Below, in pieces: positions 9,437-62,525 of a stretch of 64,000 nt of DNA (the stretch's first letter is position 1; the number at the start of each line of letters is the position of its first letter). The stretch is from Gemmatirosa kalamazoonensis. GTDB taxonomy: Bacteria; Gemmatimonadota; Gemmatimonadetes; Gemmatimonadales; Gemmatimonadaceae. The notes under the pieces were generated by a model. That model was not told where the DNA came from. It searched no databases and was given only the letters and a program-made list of their open reading frames with translations. The translations under genes were made by a program, and so were the position numbers. The stretch is taken from positions 1,658,220 to 1,722,219 of the forward strand of contig NZ_CP007128.1 of the NCBI RefSeq assembly GCF_000522985.1, read 5' to 3'.

Positions 9437-9533
9437 GCTGCGTGGCTGGGTAGCTGCGTAGCTGCGTGGCTGCGTGGCTGCGTGGCTGCGTAGCGTCGGC
9501 GTGTTCACGCAGCCACGCAGCCACGCAGCAGCC
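9437..9533. repeat. Word hairpin, family GCTGCGTG
   Basis: About eight copies of the 8-bp word GCTGCGTG and variants (GCTGGGTA, GCTGCGTA) are followed by a short loop (CGTCGGCGTGTT) and the reverse-complement words CACGCAGC. It lies between convergent genes and ends 1 bp before the stop of the next one, so bidirectional termination is likely. Relatives are at 26813, 44392, 58741 and 62422. Confidence 0.85.
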
Positions 9534-17756: not shown

Positions 17757-17776
17757 GGGATACGGTGCCATCGTGT

Positions 17777-17852
17777 CTCACGCGGAGACGCGGAGGACGC
17801 GGAGGAAACCATGTCGGTGGTGTTCTCCGCGTTCTCCGCGGCTCCGCGTGAG
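17777..17852. repeat. Word hairpin, family CGCGGAGAACG
   Basis: Left arm CTCACGCGGAGACGCGGAGG and right arm ending CTCCGCGTGAG are reverse complements with a loop near AAACCATGTCGGTGG. It is the second of four copies (4477, 17777, 30487, 43394). It follows the amidohydrolase and precedes the next gene in the same direction by 25 bp. Confidence 0.85.
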
Positions 17853-17876
17853 ACTCACAACGCAACGGACGCACTC

Positions 17877-34808: not shown

Positions 34809-36694
34809 ACGACGGTTGGGACTCGGGGGGCGGGACTCGGGACTCGGGACTCGGGACTCGCAGCCAGCGGGCTTCCGAGTCCCGAGTCCCGAGTCCCGAG
34901 TCCCGACAACACGGCATCCACGACCACGCGCGCGGTGAGCGGCAGTCCGCCGTAGTCGAGCACCGCGGTCATGCGGTCGCGCGCCACGCCGGTCTCGATC
35001 GCGAGCAGCGATCGGAGCTGCGCGTCGCGGTTCTGCTCCACGACGAACAGCCGCGGATGCGACTCCAGGAACTCGCGCACGCTCGCCGCGAACGGGAACG
35101 CCCGCACGCGCAGGTAGTCCACCGCCACGCCGAGCGCGCGCAGCGTCGCCGTCGCCTCGCGCACCGCACCGTCGCACCCGCCGAGCGACACGACGCCGAC
35201 CGCCGGCTCGCCGTCGGAGCCGTTAGGCACCGCGTCGATCACCGGCTGCGGGGCGGTGTCGGCGGCGCCGGCGATCTTGCGCGCGAGCCGGTCCACCACC
35301 TCGCGGTACTCCGCGGAGTCCTCGGTGTACGCGGCGTTCGCGTCGTGTCCGGAGCCGCGCGTGAAGTACGCGCCGCGCGGGTCGACGCCGGGCAGCGTGC
35401 GCGCGGCGATGCCGTCGCCGTCGACGTCGCGGTAGCGCGCGAACTTCGCGATGCGGTCCAGCTCCGCCTTGCCGAGCACCTTGCCGCGGTCGGGGCGGTA
35501 TGCGTCGTCCCACGTGAACCGTCGGCACATCCAGTCGTTCATGCCGATGTCGAGATCGCTCGCCACGAACACCGGCGTCTGGTACCGCTCCGCGAGGTCG
35601 AACGCGGCGGCGGCCATCGTGAAGCATTCCTCGGGGCTCGCCGGGAACAGCACGATGTGCTTCGTGTCGCCGTGCGACGCGTAGGCCAGCGAGAAGAGGT
35701 CCGCCTGCTGCGTGCGCGTCGGCATCCCCGTGCTGGGGCCCGCGCGCTGCACGTCGAAGAACACGCCGGGGATCTCCGCGTAGTACGCGAGGCCGATGAA
35801 CTCCTGCATGAGCGAGATGCCGGGGCCCGCCGTGCACGTGAACGCGCGTGCGCCCGCCCATCCCGCGCCGACGACCATCCCCGCCGCGGATAGCTCGTCC
35901 TCCGCCTGCAGGATGCAGTAGCGCTTCTGCTTCGTCGCCGGGTCCACGCGCCACCGCGCGCAGAACTCGGTGAACGCCTCCATGAGCGACGTGCTCGGCG
36001 TGATGGGGTACCACGCGCCGACCGTCGCGCCGGCGTAGAGCGCGCCCAGCCCCGCGGCGGTGTTCCCATCCAGCAGCACGTGGTCGCGCGTGGCGTCCAT
36101 CGGCTCCAGGTGGAACGGCAGCGGGCACCCGTACTGCGTGCGCGCGTACTCCGCGCCGAGCGCGAGCGCCTTCGCGTTCGCGTCGAGCAGCTTCGGCTTC
36201 TTGCCGTAGCGCTCCTTCACGAGCGCGTCGAGCACCGCGGTGTCGATGTCGAGCAGCGCCGACAGCGCGCCGGCGTAGGCGATGTTGCGGAGCAGCGTGC
36301 GCTCGCGGTCGCCCGTGAACGCCTCGGTGCACAGCGCGCCGAACGGGACGCCGAGCACGTGGACGTCGTCGCGCGCGAGCGCCGCGTCGAGCGGCCACGA
36401 CGAGTCGTAGAGCAGGTAGCCGCCGGTGCGCACCGCCGCGACGTCCTTCGCGTACGTCGCCGGGTTCAGCGCGACGACGAGGTCGACGTCCGACGGCCGC
36501 GCGATCCAGCCGTCGCCGCTCACCCGGATCTCGTACCACGTCGGCAGCCCCTGGATGTTCGACGGGAACAGGTTCTTCCCCGACACCGGGATGCCCATGC
36601 GGAAGATGGCCTGCATGAGCAGGCCGTTCGCGCTCGCCGAGCCCGTGCCGTTGACCGTGCCGATCCTGAACGCGAAATCGTTGATGCCGCTCAT
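34805..36694 (-). CDS. korA: 2-oxoacid:ferredoxin oxidoreductase alpha subunit with fused gamma domain
   Basis: 629 residues. Residues about 1-190 are the gamma domain (GTVNGTGSASANGLLMQAIFRMG); the alpha part follows with GNTAAGLGALYAGATVGAWYPITPSTSLMEAF and GPGISLMQEFIGLAYYAEIPGVFFDVQRAGPSTGMPTRTQQADL. The C-terminal tail (about 600-629: SGLGTRDSGLGSPLAASPES and RVPSPAPRVPTVV) is encoded by an inserted word hairpin and is not part of the enzyme fold. Overlaps of ATGA type occur at both ends, with the oxidoreductase gene upstream and korB downstream. Confidence 0.93.
   Translation of the reverse strand: MSGINDFAFRIGTVNGTGSASANGLLMQAIFRMGIPVSGKNLFPSNIQGLPTWYEIRVSGDGWIARPSDVDLVVALNPATYAKDVAAVRTGGYLLYDSSWPLDAALARDDVHVLGVPFGALCTEAFTGDRERTLLRNIAYAGALSALLDIDTAVLDALVKERYGKKPKLLDANAKALALGAEYARTQYGCPLPFHLEPMDATRDHVLLDGNTAAGLGALYAGATVGAWYPITPSTSLMEAFTEFCARWRVDPATKQKRYCILQAEDELSAAGMVVGAGWAGARAFTCTAGPGISLMQEFIGLAYYAEIPGVFFDVQRAGPSTGMPTRTQQADLFSLAYASHGDTKHIVLFPASPEECFTMAAAAFDLAERYQTPVFVASDLDIGMNDWMCRRFTWDDAYRPDRGKVLGKAELDRIAKFARYRDVDGDGIAARTLPGVDPRGAYFTRGSGHDANAAYTEDSAEYREVVDRLARKIAGAADTAPQPVIDAVPNGSDGEPAVGVVSLGGCDGAVREATATLRALGVAVDYLRVRAFPFAASVREFLESHPRLFVVEQNRDAQLRSLLAIETGVARDRMTAVLDYGGLPLTARVVVDAVLSGLGTRDSGLGSPLAASPESRVPSPAPRVPTVV
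34819..34907. repeat. Word hairpin, family CGGGACT, inside korA
   Basis: The left arm iterates the 7-bp word CGGGACT (34831-34860); the right arm iterates CGAGTCC (34874-34906), with loop GCAGCCAGCGGGCTT. Seven is not a multiple of three, so three words give a seven-codon peptide (GLGTRDS; PESRVPS from the other arm). It forms the last 30 or so codons of korA without a stop. A second family member lies in the amidase gene at 54155. Confidence 0.88.
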
Positions 36695-41931: not shown

Positions 41932-42861
41932 TCAACTGCGCAGTATGCGCCTCTCGACGGCGGCGAATCCCTCACGCACGCTGGTATACCGCGGCGCCCA
42001 CCCGGCCGCCGCTCGCAGCTTGCGGTTCGACATCCGCTGCGACCGCGACAGCAGCTCGAGCGTGCTCCCGCCGAGTCGGGTGAGCCAGCGCGGGAGCGGG
42101 CGCGGGGGCGGGGCGCCTAACGCGGCGGCGAGCGCCGTGCCCCACGCGCCGCGCGTCAGCGGCTCGTCGTCGGTGACGTTGTAGATCCCGGCGGGCACGC
42201 CGAGCGCGGCGACCGCCGCCGTCGCCGCGTCGTCGTGCGACACCGACGACACGAATGCGCTCGCGTCGCCGGGCAGCGCGAGCCACCCCCGGCGCGCGAT
42301 CGGCATCGCGTCGTGCAGGAACGTCGAGTCGGGGCCGTAGAACAGCGCGAAGCGCAGCACCACGCCGGTCCCGCCGCGTTCGGTGAACCGCGCCTCCGAG
42401 CGCTCCGCGTCGAGCACCGATTCGTTGTACGGTGCGGGCCGCACGGGCCACGACTCGTCGATCCACGCGTCGCCACCGTCCTCGTAGATCGGCGCGAACG
42501 ACTCCTGCACGAGTCGCGGCACGCCCGCCGCGAGCATCGCGTCGACGAGCGCCGCGGAGCCGTCGCGCCGCACGCGATCGTTCTCGCGCCACGCGCTGGG
42601 GAGCAGCATGCGGTTCGTCGAGCGCGGCATGTGCGTCGCGAGGTTCAGCACCGCGTCGTGCCCGTGCAGCGCGCGCCGCAGCGCGGCCGCGTCGAGCAGA
42701 TCCACGTCCACCGCGGCGGCGCCCTGGCGCTCGAGCGCCGAACGCTTCTCCGGCGAGCGTCCCACCGCGGTGACCGCGTGGCCGGCGGCGACGAGCAGCG
42801 GCACCACGCGCCGCCCGACCACGCCCGTCGCGCCGGTCACGAAGATGCGCGTACCGCTCAC
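41932..42861 (-). CDS. NAD-dependent epimerase/dehydratase-like protein of the ECF41 module
   Basis: 309 residues from GTG 42861, overlapping the previous stop by four bases (GTGA). A Rossmann fold with GATGVVGRRVV at the start identifies the extended short-chain dehydrogenase/epimerase group; VQESFAPIYEDGG and FALFYGPDS are strand motifs. The usual YxxxK pair is replaced by PYNESVLDAERS, so it may not be a standard epimerase. Epimerase-like, oxidoreductase and carboxymuconolactone-decarboxylase genes are the known neighbours of ECF41 sigma genes, and this one is the second gene of the operon. Confidence 0.88.
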   Translation of the reverse strand: MSGTRIFVTGATGVVGRRVVPLLVAAGHAVTAVGRSPEKRSALERQGAAAVDVDLLDAAALRRALHGHDAVLNLATHMPRSTNRMLLPSAWRENDRVRRDGSAALVDAMLAAGVPRLVQESFAPIYEDGGDAWIDESWPVRPAPYNESVLDAERSEARFTERGGTGVVLRFALFYGPDSTFLHDAMPIARRGWLALPGDASAFVSSVSHDDAATAAVAALGVPAGIYNVTDDEPLTRGAWGTALAAALGAPPPRPLPRWLTRLGGSTLELLSRSQRMSNRKLRAAAGWAPRYTSVREGFAAVERRILRS

Positions 42862-43331
42862 GCGTGCGCCGCGACGCGCTCGCGCGGCTGGTACGTGCCC
42901 GGCTCCGCGCGGAAGCTCACCGCGAGCCGGTTCCATCCGTTGATGGCGACGATCGCCATCGTGAGCGCGACGATCTCCTCCTCGGAGAAGTGCGCGCGCA
43001 CCTCGTCGTACGCCTCGTCGGGCACGCCCGTGACGGCGAGCGCGGTGACCGACTCCGTCCACGCCAGCGCGGCCCGCTCGCGCGGCGTGAAGAACGGCGT
43101 CTCGCGCCACACCGGCACCGCGTACAGCCGCTGCTCGGTCTCGCCGGCGAGCCGCGCGTCCTTCGTGTGCATGTCGACGCAGTACGAGCAGCCGTTCATG
43201 TACGATGCGCGCAGCTTCACCAGCTCCACCAGCTCCGGCTCCAGCCCCGACCGCCGCACGTACGACTCCAGCCCCGACATCGCGCGCACCGCCTCGGGTG
43301 CCACGCGCGCATGATCGATTCGTCTCGTCAT
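42858..43331 (-). CDS. Carboxymuconolactone decarboxylase/AhpD-like protein
   Basis: 157 residues. The CxxC-type motif CSYCVDMHTKDAR and the region VELVKLRASYMNGC are those of the AhpD-like CMD family (alkylhydroperoxidase core). These proteins work in peroxide or thiol redox chemistry. It is first in the operon that diverges from the ECF41 sigma gene and has a sigma-type promoter 31 bp upstream. The start MTRRIDHARVAPEAV is the usual beginning. Confidence 0.93.
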   Translation of the reverse strand: MTRRIDHARVAPEAVRAMSGLESYVRRSGLEPELVELVKLRASYMNGCSYCVDMHTKDARLAGETEQRLYAVPVWRETPFFTPRERAALAWTESVTALAVTGVPDEAYDEVRAHFSEEEIVALTMAIVAINGWNRLAVSFRAEPGTYQPRERVAAHA

Positions 43332-43361
43332 CTCTCGCTCCGTTGGACGTTCACCCCGAAA

Positions 43362-43387
43362 GACGGGGACGGGCGCGGCGTGTGACA
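43362..43387 (-). promoter_or_regulatory. ECF41-type promoter of the CMD-epimerase operon
   Basis: On the minus strand TGTCACA (43387-43381), then 15 bp, then CGTC (43365-43362). ECF41 sigma factors are known to use TGTCACA -35 and CGTC -10 elements. The promoter drives the CMD gene starting at 43331. The divergent sigma gene has the same two boxes with the same 15-bp spacer. Confidence 0.85.
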
Positions 43388-43393
43388 GCTTCT

Positions 43394-43474
43394 CTCACGC
43401 GGAGGCGCGGAGAACGCGGAGAAGGCCAACTCGCTGTGTTGTTGTTCTCCGCGTTCTCCGCGCCTCCGCGTGAG
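43394..43474. repeat. Word hairpin, family CGCGGAGAACG, between divergent ECF41 promoters
   Basis: CTCACGCGGAGGCGCGGAGA on the left and TTCTCCGCGCCTCCGCGTGAG-type words on the right form a nearly perfect long hairpin with a loop AGGCCAACTCGCTGTGTTGT. It lies wholly between the two divergent -35 boxes. It is the fourth member of its family, and here it is in a divergent, not terminal, position. Confidence 0.88.
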
Positions 43475-43488
43475 CCCGTCGAGCCCCT

Positions 43489-43514
43489 TGTCACATCCCC
43501 GGCCGGGTCGCGTC
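43489..43514 (+). promoter_or_regulatory. ECF41-type autoregulatory promoter of the sigma gene
   Basis: TGTCACA at 43489-43495, 15 bp spacer, CGTC at 43511-43514. The -10 box ends only 9 bp before the sigma ATG at 43524, so the transcript would be leaderless or nearly so. The same boxes and spacing drive the opposite operon, indicating autoregulation of the module. Confidence 0.82.
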
Positions 43515-43523
43515 TTTTCAGGC

Positions 43524-44387
43524 ATGGAGCAGCTCCAGCACTCGACCGACGATCTCGAGCACTACCGCCCGCGCCTCTTCGGCGTCGCCTATCGCATGCT
43601 CGGCGACGCGGCCGAGGCCGAGGACATCGTGCAGGAAGCGTATCTGCGGTGGCAGCAGGCCGACCGCACCGACGTGCGCGCACCGGAAGGCTGGCTCGTC
43701 GCCGTCGTCACGCGGCTCGCCATCGACCGGCTGCGGCGGCTCGAGACCGAGCGGCGCGCGTACGCCGGTCCGTGGCTCCCCGAGCCGATCGCGACCGAGC
43801 GCGTCGCCGACAACGAGGAGCTCGCGTCGGACCTGTCGCTCGCGCTGCTCGTGCTGCTCGAGCGGCTCGGCGCGGAGGAGCGCGCGGCGTTCCTGCTCCG
43901 CGAGGTGTTCGAGGCCGACTACGACGAGATCGCGCGCGTGCTCGAGGCGAGCGTCCCCGCGGTGCGGCAGATGGTGCACCGCGCCCGTGAGCGGGTGCGC
44001 GGCGGCCGCTCGCGCTTCGCCGCGCCGCCCGACGCACGCGAGCGACTGTTAGGCCGCTTCCTCGCCGCGCTCGAGGCCGAGGACCGCGACGCGCTGCTCG
44101 CCGTGTTCGCGCCCGACGCGACGTTCACGAGCGACGGCGGCGGCCGCGTCCCCGCCGCGCGCAACGTCCTCCGCGGCCCCGACCGCATCACGCGCTTCCT
44201 GCTCGGCATCCAGCGGAAGTACCGCCTCCCGATCACGCACGAGGTGCGCTCGCTCAACGGCGAGCCCGCCATCGCGAGCTACGCGTTCGGCCACCTCTAC
44301 TGCGTCACCGCCATCGACATGGACGGTGATCGGATCTCGGCCGTCTACCGCGTATTGAATCCGGAGAAGCTGCGGTACGTGGAGTGA
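43524..44387 (+). CDS. ECF41-group RNA polymerase sigma factor with SnoaL-like C-terminal domain
   Basis: 287 residues from ATG 43524. Region 2 (YRPRLFGVAYRMLGDAAEAEDIVQEAYLRW) and region 4 (ERLGAEERAAFLLREVFEADYDEIARVL...VRQMVHRARERV) are complete. The linker has WLPEP. The C-terminal SnoaL-like domain carries DGDRI and NPEKL, variants of the DGGRI and NPDKL motifs that mark ECF41. That domain controls the sigma without a separate anti-sigma. It should transcribe itself and the divergent CMD-epimerase operon from two TGTCACA-N15-CGTC promoters. Confidence 0.95.
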   Translation: MEQLQHSTDDLEHYRPRLFGVAYRMLGDAAEAEDIVQEAYLRWQQADRTDVRAPEGWLVAVVTRLAIDRLRRLETERRAYAGPWLPEPIATERVADNEELASDLSLALLVLLERLGAEERAAFLLREVFEADYDEIARVLEASVPAVRQMVHRARERVRGGRSRFAAPPDARERLLGRFLAALEAEDRDALLAVFAPDATFTSDGGGRVPAARNVLRGPDRITRFLLGIQRKYRLPITHEVRSLNGEPAIASYAFGHLYCVTAIDMDGDRISAVYRVLNPEKLRYVE

Positions 44388-44391
44388 GGCT

Positions 44392-44458
44392 GGCTGCGTG
44401 GCTGCGTGGCTGCGTGGCGGTGCCGTTACGCAGCCACGCAGCGACGCAGCCGCGCAGC
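44392..44458. repeat. Word hairpin, family GCTGCGTG
   Basis: Three words GGCTGCGT, loop GCGGTGCCGTT, then ACGCAGCCACGCAGCGACGC. It lies between the convergent sigma gene and a small Cys-rich gene, whose stop it touches. It probably terminates both. Confidence 0.85.
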
Positions 44459-54117: not shown

Positions 54118-55752
54118 ATGGACCGTCGCGCCTTCGTCGCCGCAGTGGCGATATCGGGACTCGGGACTCGGGACTCGGGACTCGCGCCCCCCGAGTCCCG
54201 AGTCCCGAGTCCCGAGTCCCGAGTCCCCGGTCCCGAGCTCGAAGAAGCGACGCTCGACGACCTGCAGGGGATGATGGCGTCGGGCCGCCACACGTCGCGC
54301 TCCATCACGCAGCTCTACCTCGACCGCATCGCGACGCTCGACCGCGCCGACGGCGATCGGCCCGGCGTGAACTCGGTGATCGAGCTCAATCCCGATGCGC
54401 TGCAGATCGCCGACGCGATGGACGCCGAGCGGAAGGCGGGGCGCGTGCGCGGGCCGCTGCACGGCGTGCCGGTGCTCGTGAAGGACAACATCGACACCGC
54501 GGACCGCATGGAGACGACGGCGGGGTCGCTCGCCCTCGTCGGCGCGGCGAAGCCGAAGGACGCGTTCGTCGCGGAGCGGCTGCGCGCGGCGGGCGCGGTA
54601 TTGCTCGGCAAGACGAACCTCAGCGAGTGGGCGAACTTCCGATCCACGCACTCGGTGAGCGGGTGGAGCGGCCGCGGCGGACAGACGCGCAACCCGTACG
54701 CGCTCGACCGCAACCCGTGCGGCTCGAGCTCCGGCTCGGGCGCGGCCGCATCGGCGAGCTTCTGCGCCGTCGCCGTCGGCACGGAGACCGACGGCTCGGT
54801 GGTGTGTCCGTCGTCGACGAACGGGCTCGTGGGGATCAAGCCGACGTTGGGCCTCGTGAGCCGCGCCGGCATCGTGCCCATCGCGCACAGCCAGGACACC
54901 GCCGGGCCGATGACGCGCACCGTGCGCGACGCGGCGATCCTGCTCGGCGTGCTCGCGGGCGCGGACCCGCGCGATCCGCTCACCGCGTCGTCGCGCGGGC
55001 ACGCGGAGCGCGACTACACGCGCCATCTCGACGCGAACGGGCTGAAGGGCGCGCGCATCGGCGTGTCGCGCAAGTCGATGGGCTTCAGCCGCGACGTCGA
55101 CCGGCTCGTGGAGGACGCGCTCGACGTGATGAAGCGCGCCGGCGCGACGATCGTGGATCCGGCGAACCTCCCGACCGACGGGCAGTTCGACGCGGCGGAG
55201 GGGGAGGTGCTGCGCTACGAGTTCAAGGCGGACCTGAACGCGTACCTCGCCGCGCGCGGCGTTAGGCTCGACGGCGCGCCGGCGACGCTGCAGTCGCTGA
55301 TCGACTGGAACGCGCGGCACGCCGACCGCGAGATGCCGTACTTCGGCCAGGAGCTGTTCGAGCAGTCGCAGGCAAAGGGGCCGCTGACGACGCCGGCGTA
55401 CCGGAGCGCGCTCGCGAAGAGCAAACGGCTGGCGGGAACCGAGGGGATCGATGCGGCGTTACGGGCGCACCGACTCGACGCGCTCGTCGCGCCGACGGGA
55501 CAGCCGGCGTGGACGATCGACCTGCTGAACGGCGATCACTTCACCGGGGGCTACTCGTCGGCGTCGGCGGTGGCGGGGTACGCACACGTCACGGTGCCCG
55601 CGGGCATGGTGCACGGGCTGCCGGTGGGGCTATCGTTCTTCGCGGGTGCGTGGAGCGAGCCCACGCTGCTGCGGCTGGCGTACGCGTTCGAGCAGGCCAC
55701 GAAGCACCGCCGGGCGCCGAGGTTTCTGGCGTCGGCGAATCTCGCCGAATGA
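54118..55752 (+). CDS. Amidase-signature enzyme with exported N-terminus
   Basis: 544 residues from ATG 54118. MDRRAFVAAVAISGLG starts with a twin-arginine-like signal that is cut short by a translated word hairpin (GLGTRDSGL and PESRVPS repeats, residues about 13-39). The enzyme has the Ser-cisSer-Lys triad: Lys122 (VLVKDNID), GSSSGSG at 202-208 and TETDGS with Ser227, positions that match peptide amidase. ANFRSTHSVSGWSGRGGQTRNPYALDRNPCG and PSSTNGLVGIKPTLGLVS are well kept. It probably hydrolyses an amide in the periplasm or cytosol. Confidence 0.92.
   Translation: MDRRAFVAAVAISGLGTRDSGLAPPESRVPSPESRVPGPELEEATLDDLQGMMASGRHTSRSITQLYLDRIATLDRADGDRPGVNSVIELNPDALQIADAMDAERKAGRVRGPLHGVPVLVKDNIDTADRMETTAGSLALVGAAKPKDAFVAERLRAAGAVLLGKTNLSEWANFRSTHSVSGWSGRGGQTRNPYALDRNPCGSSSGSGAAASASFCAVAVGTETDGSVVCPSSTNGLVGIKPTLGLVSRAGIVPIAHSQDTAGPMTRTVRDAAILLGVLAGADPRDPLTASSRGHAERDYTRHLDANGLKGARIGVSRKSMGFSRDVDRLVEDALDVMKRAGATIVDPANLPTDGQFDAAEGEVLRYEFKADLNAYLAARGVRLDGAPATLQSLIDWNARHADREMPYFGQELFEQSQAKGPLTTPAYRSALAKSKRLAGTEGIDAALRAHRLDALVAPTGQPAWTIDLLNGDHFTGGYSSASAVAGYAHVTVPAGMVHGLPVGLSFFAGAWSEPTLLRLAYAFEQATKHRRAPRFLASANLAE
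54155..54236. repeat. Word hairpin, family CGGGACT, inside the amidase gene
   Basis: Four copies of CGGGACT (54155-54184), loop CGCCCCCC, then five of CGAGTCC (54192-54227) and a partial CCCGAG. It encodes residues about 13-39 of the amidase in frame. The same family forms the C-terminus of korA at 34819. The frames of the two insertions differ in reading order but both stay open. Confidence 0.9.
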
Positions 55753-56488: not shown

Positions 56489-56599
56489 CAGGGCAAGAGG
56501 GCAGGAGGGCACGAAACGAGGGCAGGAGAGCCATCAGGCCTCCTGCCCTCGTTTCGTGCGTGCCCTCCTGCCCTCCTGCCCTCCTGCCCTCTTGCCCTG
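56489..56599. repeat. Long hairpin built from GAGGGCAG words
   Basis: CAGGGCAAGAGGGCAGGAGG...CACGAAACGAGGGCAGGAG pairs with CTCCTGCCCTCGTTTCGTG and several CCTGCCCTC words ending in CTTGCCCTG. The arms are about 40 bp, including a non-iterated part CACGAAACGAG that also matches perfectly. It lies between two co-directional genes, 16 bp before the MFS start. Confidence 0.88.
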
Positions 56600-62421: not shown

Positions 62422-62520
62422 CTGCGTGGCTGCGTGGCTGCGTGGCTGCGTGGCTGCGTGGCTGCGTGGCTGCGTGGCTGCGTAACGGCAGGCACGCAGC
62501 CACGCAGCCACGCAGCCACG
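62422..62520. repeat. Word hairpin, family GCTGCGTG, best example
   Basis: Seven perfect or near-perfect copies of GCTGCGTG (62422-62477), loop GTAACGGCAGGC, then CACGCAGC words three and a half times. It lies between the M28 gene and the convergent DUF2911 gene and reaches to 6 bp before the latter's stop. Confidence 0.92.
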
Positions 62521-62525
62521 CCGCG

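Follow-up and report, generated by a model that had tools for sequence, protein, structure and literature searches.

Twin divergent ECF41-type promoters around a dispersed word hairpin at a sigma factor locus of Gemmatirosa kalamazoonensis

In Gemmatirosa kalamazoonensis, a stress-type sigma factor gene of the ECF41/SigJ type and a divergent operon encoding a carboxymuconolactone decarboxylase (CMD) and an epimerase are each preceded by the sequence TGTCACA-N15-CGTC, with a long hairpin between the two. We consider it very probable that this locus is an ECF41 switch with two outward copies of the sigma factor's own promoter, and that the hairpin is an inserted dispersed repeat. The locus lies in a window of 64,000 nucleotides (C2:1658220-1722219 of the genome), which is the whole stretch of DNA analysed here. 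Twin divergent ECF41 promoters as such are not new, because Wecke et al. (2012; PMC3426412) counted such loci: the motif was defined there as TGTCACA and CGTC with a spacer of 16 +/- 1, the divergent arrangement made up 15% of ECF41 loci, most of them with both motifs, and among 55 divergent loci the motif stood before the sigma gene in 36 and before the COE gene in 41 (twin promoters are tabulated in their Table 4). What this locus offers is a clean, testable ECF41 circuit within a phylum that has been little studied, together with two rules: a lineage-specific 15-bp spacer and, as a prediction, a recurrent pairing of a leaderless sigma mRNA with a leadered target. Its features are as follows.

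41932-42861, minus strand: NAD(P)-binding SDR/epimerase gene, overlapping the CMD stop codon (PF13460 and PF01370; gene call).
42858-43331, minus strand: CMD/AhpD-like protein with CSYC (CxxC) (PF02627, E=1.3e-24; TIGR00778).
43338-43341, minus strand: Shine-Dalgarno-like GGAG of the CMD gene (from sequence).
43362-43387, minus strand: ECF41-type promoter of the CMD-epimerase operon (-35 TGTCACA at 43387-43381, N15, -10 CGTC at 43365-43362).
43394-43474, no strand: inverted repeat of 81 nt lying between the -35 boxes, a dispersed repeat of this genome (ACGCGGAG word family).
43489-43514, plus strand: ECF41-type promoter of the sigma gene, read as autoregulatory (-35 TGTCACA at 43489-43495, N15, -10 CGTC at 43511-43514).
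43515-43523, plus strand: 9-nt gap between the -10 box and the sigma ATG, with no Shine-Dalgarno sequence.
43524-44387, plus strand: ECF41/SigJ-type sigma factor gene with a C-terminal SnoaL_2 domain (287 aa).
44392-44451, no strand: another word hairpin (GGCTGCGT family), which follows the stop codon of the sigma gene at 4 bp, the usual 3'-end position of its class.

The assignment of the 43524-44387 product to ECF41/SigJ is supported by domains, motifs, comparison and the literature. A domain search placed sigma2 (PF04542) at residues 12-73 and sigma4 (PF08281) at residues 106-157, with no sigma3 between them, followed by SnoaL_2 (PF12680) at residues 178-239. The SigJ subfamily model PRK09636 scored 302.8 bits against a cut-off of 271, and TIGR02957 scored slightly under its curated cut-off; the best PDB match was 5xe7, the crystal structure of SigJ from M. 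tuberculosis (E=1.5e-51, aligned over 9-283). All three motifs named in the original prediction are present in the translation: WLPEP (as GPWLPEPIA, in the sigma2-sigma4 linker), DGDRI and NPEKL. The protein thus has the features by which ECF41 is recognised, including a C-terminal extension, about 100 aa long, that has a SnoaL-like fold and the DGGGR and NPEKL motifs. It shares the order of domains, the WLPEP linker and the C-terminal motifs with the ECF41 factors of B. licheniformis and R. sphaeroides and with SigJ of M. tuberculosis, and the CMD/epimerase neighbours, the TGTCACA and CGTC boxes and the promoters on both sides are likewise those of the loci described by Wecke et al. (2012; PMC3426412). 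The locus differs from theirs in its spacer of 15 rather than 16, in the predicted leaderless sigma mRNA and in the dispersed hairpin that separates the promoters. The list of open reading frames showed no anti-sigma candidate among the immediate neighbours of the sigma gene. The ECF41 identity, the CMD/epimerase neighbourhood and the reading of the twin promoters as an autoregulatory and a target promoter, all predicted earlier, are upheld by the domains and motifs, by comparison with other genomes and by the literature.

Both promoters have exactly 15 bp between their boxes, as had been predicted, and comparison with other genomes places this spacing in a phylogenetic context. A search of 298 Gemmatimonadota genomes found both boxes in the orthologues of G285 (64% identity), G208 (61%) and G214 (48%). 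The CMD-side N15-CGTC box stands in the same place in G285 (locus L144), G208 (L145), L064, G032 (L146) and G228 (L147), and equivalents of the sigma-side promoter occur in G285, G208, G241 and G214. A tree was built from 46 ECF41-type sigmas whose promoter could be recognised. In it, the spacer is 15 in seven of the nine members of one mostly Gemmatimonadota clade, whereas all of the others (37/37) have 16. Six of the seven come from the searched Gemmatimonadota genomes, that of the window included, and the seventh is from a named Gemmatimonadaceae MAG. This clustering was equalled by none of 500 label shuffles, with moderate tree support within the 15-bp clade. Since the 15-bp spacer is confined to one clade, the identical spacers at the locus are, as judged from these sequences, a lineage trait. 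The distance from one -35 box to the other varies widely among loci, from 2 to 101 bp; in the twin loci other than ours and that of G214 it is 2, 35, 43 and 97 bp. The 43-bp gap of G285 (L144) holds a run of 7-nt words (TCGCACTTCGCACCTCGCACTTCGCACC) rather than a hairpin.

The 81-bp word hairpin foreseen between the -35 boxes is indeed there, with 30 perfect outer pairs and an MFE of -73.1 kcal/mol (z = -13.8). That it is an innovation of the ECF41 switch, as had been suggested, is not supported: it belongs to a dispersed, mostly 3'-end family, and the twin-promoter orthologues of G214 and G285 have no palindrome of this kind. BLAST with 43394-43474 gave about 40 copies among the matches scored, in both orientations. 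The arm core has 135 occurrences in the genome, where the reversed control has 0, and it is present in 6 of 249 Gemmatimonadota genomes, from three families. Fifteen of the 18 intergenic copies of the ACGCGGAG family lie in convergent or co-directional gaps, the co-directional ones at a median of 12 nt from the upstream stop and 27 nt from the downstream start. With the hairpin removed, the -35 boxes at our locus would be 20 bp apart, and in the hairpin-free G214 the distance is 21 bp. The simplest reading is that a dispersed repeat came to lie in a spacer that had measured about 20 bp, an insertion that we infer from this geometry alone; the relatives are too distant to reveal an empty site.

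Several known categories were considered for the hairpin and rejected. An ECF41-specific operator does not fit dozens of copies elsewhere and twin-promoter orthologues that do without; a canonical intrinsic terminator does not fit the lack of a U-tract (43475-43482 reads CCCGTCGA); a known RNA family was rejected as well, the window giving no Rfam match. The element is dispersed, intergenic, palindromic and high-copy, as are REP/BIME and further families of stem-loop repeats (PMC2817692; PMC3733652; PMC2267715), but differs from them in its arms of tandem 7-11-nt words, its many word families and its length of about 80-140 bp. A REP mobilised by RAYT was rejected, as no Y1 (IS200-like) transposase (PF01797) was found in the genome, while control genomes were positive.

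The hairpin is one member of a much larger class. In genome stretches totalling 1.2 Mb we found 190 hairpins of comparable strength, against none in a 400-kb third-order Markov control, which extrapolates to about 1,200 per genome. Their arms consist of short words, 7-11 nt long, in tandem, and more than ten word families are represented (ACGCGGAG, GGACTGAAGAA, C[AG]CAGAGGA, AGGGCAGG, GGCTGCGT, GGGACTC and others). Eight strong word hairpins of several families fall within the window, at the following positions.

9461-9529
17775-17854
34831-34905
43394-43474
44392-44451
54154-54222
56489-56599
62448-62521

Word hairpins are present in 46 of the 81 convergent gaps of 80 bp or more, versus 16 of the 137 divergent gaps (Fisher p ~2e-12); the one at 43394-43474 is among the few class members between divergent genes. 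In co-directional gaps they lie at a median of 17 nt after the upstream stop codon. Gene calls for these gaps came from a simple codon model of our own, which makes positions near starts approximate. The 8 nt after class members contain on average 1.66 T, against a background of 1.29, and thus form no U-tract. An apical ACCA/TGGT stem is seen in 74 of the 190 hairpins and CCAAC/GTTGG in 50, across different word families; the expectation for CCAAC/GTTGG is about 0.02 per apex. Such apex stems common to different families suggest modular assembly. No published description of this class was found in the open-access literature on Gemmatimonadota palindromic repeats. We tentatively propose, as a possibility to which we would give less than even weight, that word hairpins are an apparently undescribed modular Gemmatimonadota class whose word families are built alike, often with a shared ACCA(AC)/(GT)TGGT apex, acting as U-less 3'-end elements of which a minority would insulate divergent promoters. 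The class raises a larger question than the promoters do: how about a thousand palindromes arose and spread, and why they stand behind stop codons. Dispersed palindromes of other types occur near ECF41 genes in Pseudomonadota (L137 6609-6679 and 7220-7306; L067 and L069, GTAGGGCGGAGT... and GGGAGCGACGTAAGTCGCGA).

Could the hairpin nevertheless be a working part of the locus, a cruciform or bidirectional terminator that insulates the two promoters against one another as well as against upstream or antisense transcription? Its very high stability would suit such a role, as would the terminator-like location of the class at 3' ends. Where the copies vary in sequence, the arms also stay paired (in 45 of 57 cells, against 32.8 +/- 2.7 in shuffles), a covariation that could be either selected or maintained by copying between arms. 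A word hairpin is found upstream of a second ECF41-like promoter in this genome too, but two loci cannot establish a rule: divergent gaps are occupied in 16 of 137 cases, which gives a probability of about 1-2% that both of two loci have a hairpin, and the calculation is post hoc. The palindrome is moreover missing from twin-promoter orthologues, would be absent from both predicted transcripts and has no U-tract. We therefore regard an insulating function as rather unlikely and prefer the reading of an inserted repeat, which possibly has a useful side effect in separating two otherwise overlapping promoters.

The -10 box of the sigma gene ends at 43514 and its ATG begins at 43524. In-frame gaps of 8-9 nt are also found in G285, G241, five Pseudoxanthomonas genomes, a Rhodospirillales genome and Pelomonas, so that the short gap recurs in about six ECF41 lineages; such loci are a minority of the sample, and several other ECF41 autopromoters have about 16-45 nt. 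In the SMb20029-rpoE9 operon of S. meliloti, the transcription start was mapped 9 nt past the ECF41-type -10 box of a TGTCACA-N16-CGTC promoter (PMC3616915). RpoE9 shares the promoter consensus with our locus but differs in its 16-bp spacer and its single operon with one promoter that is not divergent. By this spacing, the sigma transcript is predicted to start at 43523 or 43524, and because the short gap recurs and the S. meliloti start lies at 9 nt, its mRNA is probably leaderless, beginning at or within about 3 nt of the ATG. The 9-nt distance claimed originally is thus exact, and the leaderless transcript claimed with it holds as probable.

The opposing view is that the sigma mRNA is not leaderless and the 9-nt gap is meaningless, either since translation begins elsewhere or since an upstream housekeeping promoter dominates; indeed, sigma expression could have another promoter as a source. 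An in-frame GTG does exist upstream at 43470, but a start there would place the promoter boxes inside the coding sequence, and downstream there is no ATG, GTG or TTG from 43524 to the conserved sigma2 core. With short in-frame gaps repeated in unrelated ECF41 loci as well, we judge this view improbable and retain the leaderless start. On the CMD side, 30 nt separate the -10 box from the ATG, and a start 9 nt past the box would leave about 21 nt of leader. This length, together with the GGAG, resembles the mapped ECF41 promoters, for which 5'RACE gave leaders of 22/23 nt (PMC3426412).

These elements can be combined into a model of the switch. The SnoaL-like C-terminal domain would release the sigma factor to give an active holoenzyme, which would read TGTCACA-N15-CGTC rightward into its own gene, as positive autoregulation, and the leftward copy into the operon of the CMD (AhpD-like) and SDR/epimerase genes. 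The sigma mRNA, starting at or within about 3 nt of the ATG, would be translated without a leader, and the enzyme mRNA would have a Shine-Dalgarno sequence in its leader of about 21 nt. The landing of the repeat hairpin in the short spacer would have widened the distance between the -35 boxes from roughly 20 to 101 bp, and may as a by-product permit the promoters to fire independently or block read-through.

The rarity of the motif bears on whether the boxes are promoters at all. TGTCACA-N13..17-CGTC matches the window at these two positions alone, with 0.19 matches expected and two reached in 1 of 100 shuffles. A genome-wide scan, proposed with the original prediction, covered 7,479,215 bases in four contigs. 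The looser pattern TGTCACA-N14..17-YGTY has five sites only, two of them at the twin locus and one, with a spacer of 16, before a second ECF41-like sigma gene, while the last two (L002 and L013) lie within or at coding ORFs. The reversed-pattern control likewise yields five matches; the site count therefore proves little, and positions and conservation carry the argument. As the control gives five as well, the two ORF-associated sites are probably due to chance, and, since they do not belong to COE genes, a wider regulon was rejected. That the twin boxes are themselves chance matches in GC-rich DNA, for which one might cite the equal control and the two other genomic TGTCACA-N15-CGTC sites unlike promoters of COE genes, is hardly credible given the shuffles and given that the boxes sit exactly before both expected gene starts and in the same place in orthologues.

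The promoter region of the second ECF41-like sigma gene is the following.

L253 1501-1527 and 1570-1700 (C2 ~706880-707060): TGTCACA-N16-CGTC, a GGAGGG leader and a GGACTGAAGAA word hairpin.

The hairpin is directly upstream of the promoter. The second sigma (C2:705981-706823) is without WLPEP, DGGG and NPEKL and forms a long branch in the tree, and for these reasons its group is unsure. Its promoter boxes are identical to those of the twin locus, so that a single base pair of spacing, 15 versus 16, may separate two circuits within one genome.
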